Shown piece after piece: positions 10,601 through 19,770 of a DNA stretch of 32,575 bases (its first letter is position 1; the number at the start of each line of letters is the position of its first letter). The position numbers and the translations under genes were made by a program. This DNA is from Hyphomicrobiales bacterium. Its GTDB lineage: Bacteria > Pseudomonadota > Alphaproteobacteria > Rhizobiales > Aestuariivirgaceae. The notes beneath the pieces were generated by a model that saw only the letters and a list, made by a program, of their open reading frames with translations, was not told the DNA's origin and ran no database searches. The stretch covers positions 1 to 32,575 of the forward strand of contig JALVSR010000086.1 in NCBI GenBank assembly GCA_027024225.1, read 5' to 3'.

Positions 10601-12241
10601 TCACTCCGCCGCCTGCGCGCCTTTTTTCGCGGTGGTGGGTTTCGTTGCGCCGTTCTTCATCAGGCGGTAGGTGATGGCGTCCAGCATGGCCTCGAAGGAG
10701 GCGTCGATGATGTTGGGCGACACGCCCACGGTGAAGAAGCGCTCGCCGCCGTTGTAGCGCCACTCGATGAGCACCCGCGTGGTGGCGTGCGTGCCGGTGT
10801 TCACGATGCGCACCTTGTAGTCCACCAGCTCCAGGTCATCCAGCTTGCGCGAATACGGCCCCAGGTCCTTGCGCAGGGCGGCGTCCAGCGCGTGCACCGG
10901 GCCGTTGCCCTCGGCCACCGACATGTAGCGTTCGCCATCGATGTTCACCTTCACGATGGCCTCGGCCATGGTCACCAGCTCGCCCAGCGCATTGTGCCGG
11001 CGCTCCACCAGCACCTTGTAGCTCTCGACATCGAAGAACTCCGGCACCGTGCCGAGCGTGCGCCGCGCCAGCAGTTCGAGGGAGGCCTCCGCCGTATCAT
11101 AGGCATAGCCCGCCGCCTCGCGCTCCTTGACCTCGCGCAGCAGCTCGTTAAGCCGCGGGTCGTCCTTCTTCACCTCCAGCCCGTAGCGCTTCAGCTCCGA
11201 GAGCAGGTTGGACTTGCCCGCCTGGTCGGAAACCAGCACCCGGCGCACGTTGCCCACCGCTTCCGGCGGCACGTGCTCGTAGGTGTCGGGGCTTTTCAGG
11301 ATGGCCGAGGCATGAATGCCCGCCTTGGTGGCGAACGCGGTGAGGCCCACGTAGGGCGCCTGCTCCTCCGGCGGGCGGTTCAGGATCTCGTTGAAGGCGC
11401 GGGAAACCTGTGTGAGCTTCGCCAGCGCATCCGGCTTCAGCCCCAGGTCAAAACGCTCGGCATAGGCCTTTTTCAGCGCCAGCGTGGGGATGAGGGTGAC
11501 GAGGTTAGCATTGCCGCAGCGCTCGCCGATGCCGTTGAGCGTGCCCTGGATCATGCGCGCACCGCCGCGCACGGCGGCCAGCGAGTTCGCCACCGCCATG
11601 CCGGTGTCATCATGGCAGTGAATGCCAAGGTTTTCGCCGCCGAAGCGCTCGGCCACGCGGGTGGTGATTTCCTCGATTTCCTCCGGCAGCGTGCCGCCGT
11701 TGGTATCGCACAGCACGGCCCAGCGCGCGCCTGCTTCCAGCGCCGTCTCGACGCATTTCAGCGCATAGTCCGGGTTGGCCTTGTAGCCGTCGAAGAAATG
11801 CTCCACGTCCACCAGCGGCTCGAAGCCCTTTTCCTTCGCCGCCTGAACGGAATCGCGGATGGCCTGGAGGTTTTCCTCCAGCGAGCATTTCAGCGCCAGC
11901 TCAACATGATAATCCCAGCCCTTGGCGACGAAGGTGATGGCGTCTGCCTTCGCCTGCAACAGCGCCTGCAAGCCGGGGTCATTGCTGGCCGAGCGGCCGG
12001 GCCGGCGCGTCATGCCGAAAGCGGCGAAGGTGGCGTTCAGGCCCGGGTCTTCGGAGAAGAAGGCCGTGTCCGTGGGGTTCGCGCCGGGGTAGCCGCCCTC
12101 GATGTAGGCAATGCCCAGGTCATCCAGCATGCGCGCGATGGTCTTCTTCTCCTCCAGCGAGAAGTCGATGCCCGGCGTCTGCGCTCCGTCGCGCAGCGTG
12201 GTGTCATAGAGATAGAGGCGTTCCTTGCCTTGCGCGGTCAT
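10601..12241 (-). CDS. cimA: (R)-citramalate synthase
   Basis: This 546-residue enzyme condenses pyruvate and acetyl-CoA to citramalate, the threonine-independent entry to isoleucine synthesis. The [12 protein letters not shown] motif is at residues 13-24, with Arg18 and Asp19 of the LeuA/HMGL active site. Metal-binding HCHD is at 207-210. A C-terminal LeuA-like regulatory domain spans about the last 110 residues ([22 protein letters not shown] region). The length and the K-G-W-D-Y-H segment favour CimA over isopropylmalate synthase. The frame opens 23 codons earlier at 12310, but that extension lies in repeat DNA, so ATG 12241 is chosen. Feedback inhibition by isoleucine is expected from the family. 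Confidence 0.93.
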
Positions 12242-14135: not shown

Positions 14136-14575
14136 GGCCGCCTGATGATGTCAAAAGAGGGGGAAAAGCCATGCGAACCCGGGCCAGCCGTATGCTAGCC
14201 GGTAATGATGATGATTTCACAAATCTGCCGTTTCAGGGTCCGCATGGCCCAAGCCTATGCGCCCACCACGCGCCTTTGTCAAGATGCGGGGGCGGCAGGG
14301 ATGATGAAGCCGAAACTCGCGACGAGATGTTTCAACCGGGAAACGACATGAACGTGGAATGAAAAAATATGTCATGAAAAATATAAGGAACACATGTCAT
14401 GCATAAAAGTTTGCAACCAAAGCTATATATCAGAATTCATGAATAAATTAAGAAGCAAATTTTTTCAAAATGCGCAAAAACAACTTGTGATTTTATTGTG
14501 AAGTGGTAATGTTTTCCTTGGCAGTCAGGGGCGGGTGCCAGACAAGCAAGATCCGAATTGTAATCAGGAGATATC
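14136..14575. promoter_or_regulatory. AT-rich upstream region of the secreted-protein cassette
   Basis: No gene is credible here. Bases 14341-14530 are strikingly AT-rich in a high-GC window. ATGTCATG occurs twice in direct orientation, at 14369-14376 and 14394-14401 (25 bp apart). A weak -35/-10 pair is TTGTGA (14485-14490) with a 16-bp gap to TAATGT (14507-14512), about 65 bp before the start of the next gene. Binding of an AT-seeking regulator is possible but inferred. Confidence 0.5.
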
Positions 14576-16612
14576 ATGAGAAAACGTCGATCCCCCGCGT
14601 GGTGGGGGAGCGGGATAGTTTTGGCCGGTTTTCTGGCCATATCCGCTCCGGCGCTGCCACAATCGAACGATAACGTCATCGCGCCCGGCGATGGCGTTGT
14701 TACGGCCTTTCCGGGCACGGTTGTGAACAGGGATTTCGCCAGGGGATCCACGATTCTGGACGAGACGGTGCTCGACCTGAAGGGTGCTTCGGCGAAAGTC
14801 CTGGTGCTTGGAGCGCCGCGCTACATCTGGGACGGGCGGGCCTGGCGTGCGCCGGAGCGGCTGGCCATCCCCTTGCAGCGGACGGGGCTGGTGTTCGGCG
14901 TGGCACTGGATGATGCGAAACCTGCCAACGCCTATTTCACCGCCACTTCCACTTTCGGAATACACGCGGTCATTCCGGACAATGATGGCGATGGACATGC
15001 CGAACGCATTCGCACCGGACGCGCGGATGCCGGGTTCATGGCCGGCCAGTGGGGTGAAGGTGGTGGCCCGGGCGCGGTGTGGAAGCTGGATGGCAAGACG
15101 GGCGAGGTGAGCCTGTTTGCCGTCATACGGCTGAACGGGCGCGACAATGCCGGCGCGGCGCTGGGCAACATCGCCTTTGATGCCAGGCATCGGCAGTTTT
15201 TCGTTTCCGACCGCGATACCGGGATGATCCACCGGCTGGACATGGACGGGCGCGACCTGGGCCATTTCGACCATGGACGAACGGGCCGTGCGGCAATGGG
15301 CCTTGCCCCCGTGGCCTTCGATCCGGCGAACAAGCTGGACCTGGCCTCTGCGGATTTCGACAGCGAAGACCCGGAAACCTGGGGTTATGCCGCGTTGGAG
15401 CGGCGCGTGTGGGGGCTGGCCGTGCATGGCGGGCGGCTCTATTACGCCGTGGCGCGCTCGAAGACCAATCGGCCCGAGGTCTGGAGCGTGGGGCTGGACG
15501 AGAAGACGGGCGCCTTCCTGCGTGATGCGCGCTGGGAGCTGACGCTGCCCAGGGAAGTGTCGCGGGACGAGATTTCCGATATCGCCTTTACCAGGGAAGG
15601 GGCGATGATCCTGGCGCAGCGCGGGGCGCAGCGGGGTTCCTATGATTATTCGCGCTTCGCCCGGCCACGCAAGGCCAGGGTCTTGCGCTACTGGCTGGAG
15701 CGGCCTGATGACCCGAAAACGCCGAGCCGCTGGATCGCCCGGCCGGAAGAATACGCGGTGGGCTTTCAGCCCGATTATCACAACGGCAATGGCGGTATCG
15801 CCCTGGGCTATGGCTACACGGAAAAGGGTATCGTCAATCGCAAGGTCTGCGAAGCGTCGCTGTGGAGCACCGGCGAGGCACTGCGCCGGAACGAACTGTT
15901 CAAGAAGCAGCTCGCGGCTGGTGGCCCGCTGGATGTGAGTGGTCTGCAGGGGTCTCCGGCACGCCCGGTAAGGCCCTTCAACGCGCCACCCTGGACGAGC
16001 TATTTCAGCAGCTTCGCGGCGAAGGGCGCGGGGCCGCGTGATACCGGTCACATGGGGGATGTGGAGATTTACACCCCCGGCTGCGGTATCGGCGGGCAGG
16101 CCATCGCCGGCGCGCCGGGTGATTACGCCACGGCATGGAACTATCCGCCGGCGGACGGTTGGTATTACCCGCAGGACACAGACCCCACCTGCACCTTCGA
16201 GAATGGATGCGCGGAGCCGCCTGACCCGATATCTGATCCGACGCCCGATGACGACCCGTCGCCCGATCCATCGCCATGCATGGAGGTGAAGGCCAGGCCT
16301 TACTGCGACGCGGCCACGGGACAGGGCGGGCTTGAAGTCTCCATCGGTTCCACGCCGGCAGGGTTTTCTCCCGATGTCGTGAAGGTAACAACACCGACCA
16401 TGGGCGTCTCGCTGCCCGGTGGGCCGTTGGTCAACCTCTCGCCCACGGCCACTGTTCCGGTTTCCGGTGCGGCCCCGGGCCAGCCGGTTACCTTCAACCT
16501 GTGCGCCTTTGACAAGGCGGAAGCCAAAAGCGGCAAGCCCTTCACCTGTTGCAGGGCGACAATCACCGTAACGGCGCCGGAGAAGACCTGCGAACAGGGA
16601 GGGGTGAAATGA
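14576..16612 (+). CDS. Large secreted protein, beta-propeller-like, with C-terminal CC domain
   Basis: This 678-residue protein has a signal peptide (MRKRRSPAWW, then a hydrophobic run ending ISAPALPQS). The long middle (about 35-540) is rich in short beta strands and propeller-like phrases such as FDARHRQFFVSDRDTGMIHR, but no named family is recognised. An Asp/Pro/Ser linker leads to a C-terminal domain starting at C568 and holding adjacent C658-C659. That domain resembles residues 245-350 of the next protein. A purine-rich AGGAG site precedes ATG 14576. Its stop overlaps the next start (ATGA), so the two are translationally coupled. No catalytic residues are evident. An extracellular structural or binding role is inferred only. 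Confidence 0.85.
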   Translation: MRKRRSPAWWGSGIVLAGFLAISAPALPQSNDNVIAPGDGVVTAFPGTVVNRDFARGSTILDETVLDLKGASAKVLVLGAPRYIWDGRAWRAPERLAIPLQRTGLVFGVALDDAKPANAYFTATSTFGIHAVIPDNDGDGHAERIRTGRADAGFMAGQWGEGGGPGAVWKLDGKTGEVSLFAVIRLNGRDNAGAALGNIAFDARHRQFFVSDRDTGMIHRLDMDGRDLGHFDHGRTGRAAMGLAPVAFDPANKLDLASADFDSEDPETWGYAALERRVWGLAVHGGRLYYAVARSKTNRPEVWSVGLDEKTGAFLRDARWELTLPREVSRDEISDIAFTREGAMILAQRGAQRGSYDYSRFARPRKARVLRYWLERPDDPKTPSRWIARPEEYAVGFQPDYHNGNGGIALGYGYTEKGIVNRKVCEASLWSTGEALRRNELFKKQLAAGGPLDVSGLQGSPARPVRPFNAPPWTSYFSSFAAKGAGPRDTGHMGDVEIYTPGCGIGGQAIAGAPGDYATAWNYPPADGWYYPQDTDPTCTFENGCAEPPDPISDPTPDDDPSPDPSPCMEVKARPYCDAATGQGGLEVSIGSTPAGFSPDVVKVTTPTMGVSLPGGPLVNLSPTATVPVSGAAPGQPVTFNLCAFDKAEAKSGKPFTCCRATITVTAPEKTCEQGGVK

Positions 16613-19600
16613 CCCATCGCATGAAAAAATTTATCGCGGTGCTGGCCGTTGCGGCCGGTTGCGCGGTTGCCGCGGGCGGCGCGCTGGCGGCCAATCTGAT
16701 CCAGAACCCCGGGTTCGAGGACAATCCCCCACCCAATTTCGGCAACAATATCGGCTGGTCCATTTCACCCTGGATCGTTGGTGGTGGCAGCCAGCCAAAC
16801 GTCGTCAAGGTGGATGGCCCGGGTGGATACAATTATGCTTCCAACGGCCCGGAATCCGATGCCTCGGCGCCGGGAGCGGGCGTGGAGCAGCATTACCTGG
16901 ACATCGCCAACGGCTCCAATGACTTCTACCAGGTCTTCAAGATAGAGGCCTGCCCCGCGGCCCCGGACGGAGAAATGGCGGAAGTGACCTTTGGCGGTGC
17001 CTTTTCCACCCGTGGCAACAGCAGCGGCAAGGGCAGCATCACCATCCGTTCGGGCACGGGCACGGGCGGGGCGGTGCTGGCCACCTTGCCGTTCAACCTG
17101 CCGGCGGGCAACTCGAAGACCGACCCGTGGGTGGTCAAGACCGGCACGGTGAGCCTGCCGCGCGGCACGACGTTCTCCTTCGTCGTGCAAATGTCCAACC
17201 CGGTGAACTTCGACAATGCCTTCCTGTATATCGAGAAAGATCCGTGCAATCCGGACGATGGCGGCGACCAGGATGATCCGGGCGGCGGTGGTCATGACGA
17301 TCCGGGTGATGGGGGCGGCTCACACGATGACCAGGCCCAATGCCTGAGGCTGGATCCGAAAGTGAAATGTTCCGCCGATGGTGTCATCAGCGTCTCCCTG
17401 AACGGCTCCGGCCCCCTGGGCTTCACGCCCGATACGCTGGAACTCACCTCGCTGACCTCCGGTGTTACCGTCACGCCGTCCGAGCTGAGCCTGCCCGGAC
17501 AGACGTTCACTCTGAACGGGGCAAGCGAGGGGCAGACGGTCACGCTCCTTGCCAATGCCGTGGCCAGCGGCGCGGGCAAGGCGGAAGGAACCGACCTGTG
17601 CTGCGCCAGCAAGATCGAGGTGCAAATTCCCAAGGATATCTGCCCGCGCGATGAACCGAAGGAACCGAAGCTGACGGTGAAGAAGGAATGCGGGCCGGTG
17701 GAAAAGGGCGAGGCGTTCCCCTTTGAGGCGCAATGCACCATCACGGTAACGGGCGAGAACCTGCCGTCTGGCTCCGTGGTGGAAGTGAACGAGATGCTTT
17801 CCGGCATGGGCATGATCGGCATGATCACCTCCAGCGCCAGCTCCGAGCCGTGGTCTTGCAGCTCGTCTTCCTGGCCCGCCAGCGCGGGAACGCCGGTGAA
17901 TTGCACGCTCGGCGCCGATGACCTGATGGCCGCCGGGGGTACCTCTGTCATCAACGTGACGGTGGGCTGGGCCGGGCCCCACGACGCGGAGGAAAGCCGC
18001 AATTGCGCCAGCGTCGGGGCCTTCTTCCCGGGGCGGCAATCGGCGAAATCATCCGTCCTTCCGGATTCGATCGAGGAGGAGAAGAGCTGCCATGATTTCT
18101 CCGGGAAACCGGACGACGATGAGCCGCTGGATGTGAAGATATCCAAGGCCCATGCACCGGGTGGAGCGGAAGGGCCGCGGTTCTTCATCAGCGTGGAGCA
18201 GGTCAGCGGCTCGCTGAAGGCGGGTGATGTCGTGATTGTTACCGACACGGTGCCGCCGAATGCCACCTTCACCTCGCTGAACGCTCCGTCGGGCTGGAGC
18301 TGCACGCCGGCGAGCATTCCACCCGCCATGAGCGCGGGGCAGACGTTGACATGCTCCTACACGGTGAGCAGTGACGGGCCGCTTGGCTCCGTGTCGCCGC
18401 TGGAGGTGGGGGCGCCTCCTGGCGTGGCCATGGAGAACTGCGCGACGGTGGAGGTGCGCCGGCCCGGCGAGCTGCACGGGTTGCCGGAGACGGACACGGC
18501 CAACAACACGGCTTGTGATCACCTGCAGGATGGTAGCGGTGATACCGGCGAAAATGCGCCCCGGCTCAACGTGGACAAGAAGTGCGATCCGGCCGTTCAG
18601 GGGCCAACGGGAGCCACCGCCCAGTGCACCATTACCGTGACGGGAGCCCACCTGCCGGCTGGCGCCCAGGTGGAGGTGAAGGACGCCATTCAGGTGTATG
18701 GCGGCCAGGTGACGGCCATTGCGGGAGCCAATTCCGCCGATGGCTGGACATGCGGCCAGACACCGGTGGCGGCCAACCAGGACGTGACGTGTTCCATTTC
18801 CGGTGCGGCGTTGAACGCGGCCAGCCCGTCGGTGCTGAACGTGACGGTTTCCCTGCCGGCGAATTTCGCCAGTGACCCGGCGCACAACAAGAACTGCGCC
18901 ATGGGCGGAATCCAGGCACTGGGGCTGCAATCGGGCATCTCCTGCGCCACGTTCACCGAGGCTCAGGCAATCAAGCCGCCGGTGGTGAAGCCGCCCGTGG
19001 TTCATGACCCCGGGCCGAAGTGCGATGCACGCACCACGGTGCGCAAGGGACGGGCTTGCGCTTGTCGTTTCGGCGGGGCGCGCAAGGTTTCGCCTACGCG
19101 CTGCGCCTGTCCGCGCAGCACGAAGCTGAACCCGAAGCGTGGCCGCTGCGAGAAAATGGTGGTGTGCAAGAAACCCGCTTTCCCGACGCGTGCCGGCAAG
19201 TGTGCCTGTCCACGCGGCTGGCGTCCTGATGGCCGCAACGGCTGCCGCAAGATCGAGAAGCCGCGGCCAAACTGCGTGAAGCCCGCCTTCCCGGTCAACG
19301 GTGGCCGTGCCTGCGCCTGCCCGCGCGGCTGGCGGAAGATCTCGCCCACGCGTTGCCGCAAGATCGAGAAGCCGAGGCCGAACTGCGTGAAGCCCGCCTT
19401 CCCGGTCAATGGTGGCCGTGCCTGCGCCTGCCCGCGTGGCTGGCGGCAAGTGTCGGCGACGCGCTGCCGCAAGATCGAGAAGCCGAGGCCGAACTGCGTG
19501 AAGCCCGCCTTCCCGGTCAACGGTGGCCGTGCCTGCGCCTGCCCGCGCGGCTGGCGGAAGATCTCGCCCACGCGCTGCCTTCCCAGGGGCAAGCCAGACC

Positions 19601-19698
19601 ATCCGAAGCCTGGCAGGCCGGTCAAGCCCATCAAGGGCAAGCCCGCCAAGCCCATCAAGATGGAGCGCGGCCTGCCGGGACACCCGGGCAAGCCATAG
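16609..19698 (+). CDS. Large secreted multidomain protein with DUF11-like and Cys-rich repeats
   Basis: This 1029-residue protein has a signal peptide (MKKFIAVLAVAAGCAVAAGG). An N-terminal lectin-like region follows (NLIQNPGFE opening, about 25-210), and then an Asp/Gly linker. A CC domain (C245, C331-C332) is shared with the upstream protein. Three DUF11-like beta domains run from about 355 to 790; one holds TDTVPPNATFTSLNAPSGW and the ETDTANNTAC ending. Pro/Lys linker and Cys-rich tandem repeats (about 800-995) precede a Lys/Pro/Gly tail. ATG 16609 has an AGGGAGG ribosome binding site and overlaps the previous stop; ATG 16621 is an alternative. Architecture suggests a surface or extracellular adhesive protein; this is inference. 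No enzyme motif was seen. Confidence 0.86.
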   Translation: MTHRMKKFIAVLAVAAGCAVAAGGALAANLIQNPGFEDNPPPNFGNNIGWSISPWIVGGGSQPNVVKVDGPGGYNYASNGPESDASAPGAGVEQHYLDIANGSNDFYQVFKIEACPAAPDGEMAEVTFGGAFSTRGNSSGKGSITIRSGTGTGGAVLATLPFNLPAGNSKTDPWVVKTGTVSLPRGTTFSFVVQMSNPVNFDNAFLYIEKDPCNPDDGGDQDDPGGGGHDDPGDGGGSHDDQAQCLRLDPKVKCSADGVISVSLNGSGPLGFTPDTLELTSLTSGVTVTPSELSLPGQTFTLNGASEGQTVTLLANAVASGAGKAEGTDLCCASKIEVQIPKDICPRDEPKEPKLTVKKECGPVEKGEAFPFEAQCTITVTGENLPSGSVVEVNEMLSGMGMIGMITSSASSEPWSCSSSSWPASAGTPVNCTLGADDLMAAGGTSVINVTVGWAGPHDAEESRNCASVGAFFPGRQSAKSSVLPDSIEEEKSCHDFSGKPDDDEPLDVKISKAHAPGGAEGPRFFISVEQVSGSLKAGDVVIVTDTVPPNATFTSLNAPSGWSCTPASIPPAMSAGQTLTCSYTVSSDGPLGSVSPLEVGAPPGVAMENCATVEVRRPGELHGLPETDTANNTACDHLQDGSGDTGENAPRLNVDKKCDPAVQGPTGATAQCTITVTGAHLPAGAQVEVKDAIQVYGGQVTAIAGANSADGWTCGQTPVAANQDVTCSISGAALNAASPSVLNVTVSLPANFASDPAHNKNCAMGGIQALGLQSGISCATFTEAQAIKPPVVKPPVVHDPGPKCDARTTVRKGRACACRFGGARKVSPTRCACPRSTKLNPKRGRCEKMVVCKKPAFPTRAGKCACPRGWRPDGRNGCRKIEKPRPNCVKPAFPVNGGRACACPRGWRKISPTRCRKIEKPRPNCVKPAFPVNGGRACACPRGWRQVSATRCRKIEKPRPNCVKPAFPVNGGRACACPRGWRKISPTRCLPRGKPDHPKPGRPVKPIKGKPAKPIKMERGLPGHPGKP
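19159..19590 (+). repeat. Tandem repeats encoding Cys-rich units
   Basis: Three near-identical units start at 19270, 19381 and 19492 with exactly 111-bp period, giving 37 residues that begin NCVKPAFPVNGGRACACPRG and end KIEKPRP. The third loses its tail. A diverged unit (CKKPAFPTRAGKCACPRGW) precedes them from about 19164. Each full unit has four Cys. The DNA identity indicates recent duplication or gene conversion. Confidence 0.9.
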
Positions 19699-19739
19699 GG
19701 CTTTCACATGGACGCCCCTTCCGGGCTGACACGAAAATA

Positions 19740-19770
19740 CCCGGCTGCTTCGGCAGCCGGGCTTTTTCTT
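19740..19770 (+). terminator. Intrinsic terminator of the secreted-protein cassette
   Basis: A perfect 9-bp stem CCCGGCTGC / GCAGCCGGG has a TTCG tetraloop (19740-19761) and is followed by CTTTTTCTT. It lies 41 bp after the stop of the 1029-residue protein gene. This is a textbook Rho-independent terminator. Confidence 0.95.

Follow-up and report, generated by a model that had tools for sequence, protein, structure and literature searches.

The analysed window, a stretch of 32,575 nucleotides assigned to a Hyphomicrobiales bacterium, carries two consecutive genes, here called A and B (Table 1), which are flanked by opposite-strand housekeeping genes encoding cysteinyl-tRNA synthetase and class II DAHP synthase. 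The preliminary description of this DNA had proposed overlapping stop and start codons of two signal-peptide proteins, and both the ATGA at 16609-16612 and, judged by eye, signal-peptide-like N termini of A and B were found. The AT-rich region upstream was also confirmed: the GC content falls to 0.385 at positions 14400-14599, whereas it is 0.60-0.70 over most of the region. A search of this upstream region for sigma-70 promoters gave no site above chance. The terminator claimed downstream of gene B stood as an individual site, a strong hairpin directly followed by CTTTTTCTTG, although terminator-like sites as a class were not above chance in the region.

Table 1 Features of the two-gene locus (positions in the window; aa, residues of A or B)
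Feature	Position	Strand	Remark
AT-rich region upstream of gene A	14340..14530	+	GC 0.385-0.495 vs 0.60-0.70 nearby
Gene A	14576..16612	+	678 aa: signal peptide, propeller, CC domain
Predicted six-bladed β-propeller of A, aa 32-507	14669..16096	+	long inserted loops; AlphaFold2 and fold match
CC_A, aa 562-674	16259..16597	+	six conserved Cys; β-sandwich prediction
ATGA overlap, stop of A/start of B	16609..16612	+	
Gene B	16609..19698	+	1029 aa
N-terminal head of B, aa 28-215	16690..17253	+	starts NLIQNPGFED; jelly-roll/CBM-like
CC_B, aa 243-347	17335..17649	+	five conserved Cys
DUF11/CLIPPER-like repeat 1, aa 353-470	17665..18018	+	K359/E395/N465; fold match 9ifr
DUF11/CLIPPER-like repeat 2, aa 507-640	18127..18528	+	K513/D546/N610; sub-cut-off Pfam DUF11
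DUF11/CLIPPER-like repeat 3, aa 650-785	18556..18963	+	K657/D692/N762; sequence pattern
Cys-rich repeats of B, aa 805-990	19021..19578	+	the final three are near-identical units of 111 bp
Basic Pro/Lys-rich C-terminal tail of B	19579..19695	+	
Intrinsic terminator 3' of gene B	19740..19761	+	hairpin and T run

No family matched protein A in the Pfam and NCBIfam searches, and no convincing hit was obtained when PDB sequences were searched with profiles of the propeller and of CC. The body of A, which had been described as propeller-like, was predicted by AlphaFold2 as a six-bladed β-propeller (pLDDT mostly 87-98), and fold comparison of the predicted structure gave a Z score of 25.8 with nidogen (1npe_A). 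The fold resembles the YWTD-type six-bladed propellers of nidogen, LRP6 and megalin (Z 24-26 over approximately 260 residues), but the identity to the top matches is only 9-13%, and A has long inserts and no Pfam match. The predicted YWTD-like propeller is a common fold, and no functional likeness is claimed.

Protein B begins with a signal peptide and a CBM-like domain, continues with the CC domain described below and three stalk domains resembling DUF11/CLIPPER, and ends in Cys-rich repeats followed by a basic tail. The similarity of its head to CBM4/CBM61-type jelly rolls is weak (Z about 7.3-7.4, Foldseek E 9e-4), the pLDDT being low in parts. At least four kinds of N-terminal domain precede a constant CC_B across the lineages. 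Most B relatives have a DUF7929-type domain, similarity clustering assigned six loci to the window type (L093 only via a DUF11-like stretch), and two other kinds occur besides. The DUF11-like repeats suggested for B did not reach the Pfam cut-off (19.4 bits with PF01345, gathering score 24.6), and only sub-threshold DUF11 and CoaZ were obtained in the Pfam/NCBIfam search with B; the B proteins of the relatives L035 (63.3 bits) and L036 (54.7 bits) pass the DUF11 gathering score. The fold upheld the suggestion, since residues 350-483 matched the CLIPPER structure 9ifr, a CnaA-like Ig fold, with a Z score of 9.8 (rmsd 3.1, 110 aligned residues). In all three repeats, Lys, Asp/Glu and Asn are placed at the spacing expected for isopeptide bonds, with Glu in repeat 1, and K359 of this repeat is invariant among the compared relatives. 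A Lys-Asp-Asn triad does not occur in every member of the DUF11/CLIPPER family. Three 111-bp units with a 92% match (19241-19579) encode Cys-rich repeats of B and suggest, at the sequence level, a recent repeat expansion. A close relative (L081) has other repeat content at this place.

The two proteins share a domain of approximately 110 residues, present in a single copy in each. The preliminary description had defined this CC domain by a set of motifs, all of which were found at the named sites: the first Cys (C568 in A, C245 in B), GFSPD/GFTPD, GQPVT/GQTVT and the Cys-Cys pair (658-659 in A, 331-332 in B), which follows the first Cys by 90 and 86 residues, respectively. Two further Cys sites (C577/C254 and C672/C345) are common to both copies. 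Residues 556-678 of A aligned with residues 216-1029 of B by blastp with E=9e-10 (32% identity over 106 amino acids), and a whole-genome search with A detected the CC domain of B (E=3e-8). In an alignment of 14 copies, C9, C18, G23, G51, C99, C100 and P109 (A-copy numbering) were invariant. Six Cys are conserved in CC_A (64 of 65 copies) and five in CC_B (56 of 62 copies), the additional Cys of CC_A being located in the strand that precedes the CC pair. No Pfam or NCBIfam model covers the domain, and the CC domain alone had no credible family match. A different folding of the two copies had been named as evidence against a paired system; AlphaFold2 predicted the same run of β-strands in A 570-666 and B 247-339 (pLDDT of B 77-90) with fair-to-good confidence. 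CC_B matched an Ig-like viral domain, which has a common fold, with a Z score of 8.0 over 85 residues. In the tree, the CC_A and CC_B copies form reciprocally monophyletic clades with 100/100 support, which indicates that one old duplication gave rise to the A/B pair and that the pair arose once.

The question whether homologues always occur as a linked pair was answered with a CC profile. Among 397 genomes of the order, 28 matched, each with exactly two matches that were adjacent on one contig, mostly 1.0-1.2 kb apart, and none of the 28 had a single copy. A search of 385 genomes of the class revealed three further convincing CC-bearing genomes, two with the pair and one with A at a contig end, and the CC search of the phylum sample added none. 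The order-wide pairing rules out chance or an operon artefact, and it supports the earlier proposal that A and B are secreted partners, presumably at the cell surface, which have a new domain in common. A propeller-only search of the named genomes provided 80 loci, found in Mesorhizobium, Nitratireductor, Aminobacter, Methyloligella, Rhodomicrobium and many MAG contigs. When the window was included, A with CC_A was followed directly downstream on the same strand by B with CC_B in 62 loci, including L089, the B of which was confirmed. The CC_A and CC_B distances showed a partial correlation of 0.23 given the propeller and DUF11 distances, and 1 of 500 permutations reached as high a value; this residual co-variation is weak and the tree is not fully controlled for.

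The propeller is more widespread than the CC domain, with matches in 43 of 100 relatives, that is in far more genomes. Elsewhere it mostly stands at the N-terminal end of long single-chain proteins and is followed by DUF11-like domains and Cys-rich repeats. In these long-tailed (fused) propeller ORFs, the CC domain was found in none of 38 (E 0.01, filters off), whereas all 31 intact short-tailed ORFs of the dereplicated set contained it. The split form had at first been labelled by the presence of CC, and the ORFs were therefore re-sorted by tail length alone as a check for circularity; every intact short-tailed propeller with a paired B again had the CC domain. The CC-less short tails were cut at contig ends, broken in frame (L106 and L182) or replaced by another repeat tail (L175). 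In L175 (3769-6189), the propeller of the same family is followed by a long Lys/His/Trp-rich repeat array (KWKSKFHKKWKSVQHNKATSKPF) and not by DUF11 or CC domains. Gene A of the MAG locus L106 (8860-10944) is seemingly broken in frame just before CC_A, and the CC_A coding sequence is kept in a small ORF (10681-10944), which is followed by an intact B; the break could be a sequencing error.

In a tree of 52 propeller sequences, the root of which is not known, the split/fused state needs five changes, at least four of which are forced by supported branches, and none of the 200 bootstrap trees could be explained by a single change. The fused L083 groups with the window (99/96), L086 with L084 (100/99) and L096 with L091 and L099 (100/100). 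In all three fused proteins, the match to A stops where CC_A starts, and the match to B sets in shortly behind CC_B. The match of L083 comprises A to residue 545 and B from 347 (CC_A starts at about 562, CC_B ends at about 347), and that of L086 comprises the A of its relative to 568 and B from 524 (CC_A from 573, CC_B to 526). The comparison of L096 with L091 is the cleanest case: A is matched to residue 601 with 77% identity and B from residue 344 with 52% (411/533 and 404/776 identities), both CC domains and the N-terminal domain of B are missing, and one extra DUF11-like domain is present at the joint. Since the pair arose once and the fused forms are nested among the split ones, the fused forms are, from the sequences, most simply explained as secondary fusions with loss of both CC domains. 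Recombination between the CC repeats would leave one CC domain and was rejected as their source. The genome of the window also encodes a fused relative of 1673 amino acids (G000:C34:24529-25956; L040:6077-11098, minus strand), consisting of a propeller, DUF11-like domains and a Cys-rich tail without a CC domain, so that split and fused forms coexist in one organism. The fused L043 (6761-9823) contains PG_binding_1 in its tail (E 2e-6), hinting that tails of the propeller family may attach to peptidoglycan.

Judging from this genome organisation, CC_A and CC_B are probably heterotypic docking domains through which the chain with the propeller is joined to the chain with the stalk. The strict pairing, the presence of CC only in two-chain forms, the fusions bounded by the CC domains, the repeated changes of state and the two separate clades of CC copies favour docking, and the residual co-variation of CC_A and CC_B does so weakly. 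The body of A fused to B-like stalks without CC points in the same direction, because the CC pair would be dispensable where the chains are already joined. The exchange of N-terminal domains of B next to a constant CC_B may also be counted for it at the sequence level. Against docking, CC_B is internal, whereas the domains of classical docking pairs lie at chain ends, and operon-mates co-evolve without touching. In the proposed model, A and B would form one adhesin-like assembly of two chains at the surface or secreted. A would be a propeller head ending in CC_A, and B would be the stalk chain, carrying its own CBM-like head, CC_B, the DUF11/CLIPPER-like domains, the Cys-rich repeats and the basic tail. 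The binding of CC_A to CC_B would fix the propeller next to the head of B, close to the upper end of the stalk. Two heads, the propeller and the exchangeable N-terminal domain of B, may thus be displayed there for ligand binding. Predicted isopeptide and disulfide bonds would lock the stalk domains, and the Cys-rich repeats with the basic tail are probably the attachment part. Fusion of the chains would make the docking pair superfluous and lead to its loss. For the complete picture, an undescribed heterotypic Ig-like docking pair of an alphaproteobacterial two-chain surface fibre with two heads per stalk, which underwent several conversions between two chains and one with both domains gained or lost together each time, we are inclined to believe it, by a small degree.

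Three other explanations were considered. The CC domain could be a targeting or anchoring module by which each chain binds the same third partner (an envelope protein, peptidoglycan or a glycan), with no need for contact between the chains. The separate export of A and B, both with CC, is in agreement with this, and the PG_binding_1 domain in the tail of the fused relative indicates that anchoring parts exist among these proteins. However, a fused chain would still need its anchor, yet none of the 38 kept any CC copy, and CC_A and CC_B are fixed as different clades with six and five Cys, which fits a heterotypic role better than one common target; we consider this explanation unlikely. It is rather improbable that CC is a DUF11-related Ig-like stalk or spacer domain whose presence results from history and operon inheritance, with no pairing function. 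The predicted Ig-like β-sandwich, with its 85-residue match to the viral domain (Z 8.0), and one BLAST alignment of a DUF11-like domain with CC_B (27% identity) are compatible with a spacer, but such a domain would be expected to vary in copy number and to occur in single chains as well, whereas CC always occurs once per chain and is absent from the fused chains of at least three separate lineages. A disulfide linking A and B covalently through the CC domains would be a special form of docking. It is suggested by the odd number of Cys in CC_B (five in 56 of 62 copies, against six in 64 of 65 copies of CC_A), which leaves one Cys of CC_B without the partner present in A, but it appears very improbable. 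The six Cys of CC_A could all pair with one another, in which case none would be free for CC_B, and the odd Cys of CC_B could pair elsewhere within B.

If docking by CC_A and CC_B is true, the CC domain would stand for a new family of domains whose task is clearly defined, namely to connect one protein to another in the bacterial envelope. The pair is conserved in the much-studied genera Mesorhizobium, Nitratireductor and Aminobacter, in which the propeller and CC are without a family model. The fusions that recurred at the boundaries of CC amount to a natural experiment, from which it can be learned under what conditions a secreted assembly depends on docking. The CC pair is, moreover, a possible tool for extracellular coupling.

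A literature search on the A/B pair found nothing beyond the survey of isopeptide-bond domains, in the accessible text of which DUF11 was recently characterised as CLIPPER, a domain that builds the stalks of fibrillar adhesins and contains an isopeptide bond (PF01345; PMC12617251). B resembles the DUF11/CLIPPER adhesins in the signal peptide, the N-terminal head, the tandem Ig-like stalk and, by spacing, the Lys-Asp/Glu-Asn pattern (PMC12617251). Of the features of fibrillar adhesins, B has the export signal (by eye) and repeated stalk domains (by fold); the Pfam/NCBIfam search of A and B recognised no sorting or outer-membrane anchor. In contrast to these adhesins, the system described here comprises two gene products with a common domain, and the DUF11 score of B is below the cut-off. 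DUF7929 (PF25551), tabulated in the same text as a predicted isopeptide domain and mentioned there with neither a propeller partner nor a CC domain (PMC12617251), forms the N-terminal domain in the B proteins of several relatives, directly before CC_B, whereas the window B has the CBM-like domain instead. Two-partner secretion (TpsA/TpsB) differs, as the Pfam families of the TPS domain and the TpsB barrel are absent from A and B. Polyketide synthases use pairs of matched docking domains at chain breaks, which are missing where the chain is continuous. The CC domains differ from these in being secreted, Ig-like and homologous to each other, with CC_B internal and the docking itself proposed from genome organisation, but they are alike in their occurrence, present in the two-chain forms and absent from the fused ones.
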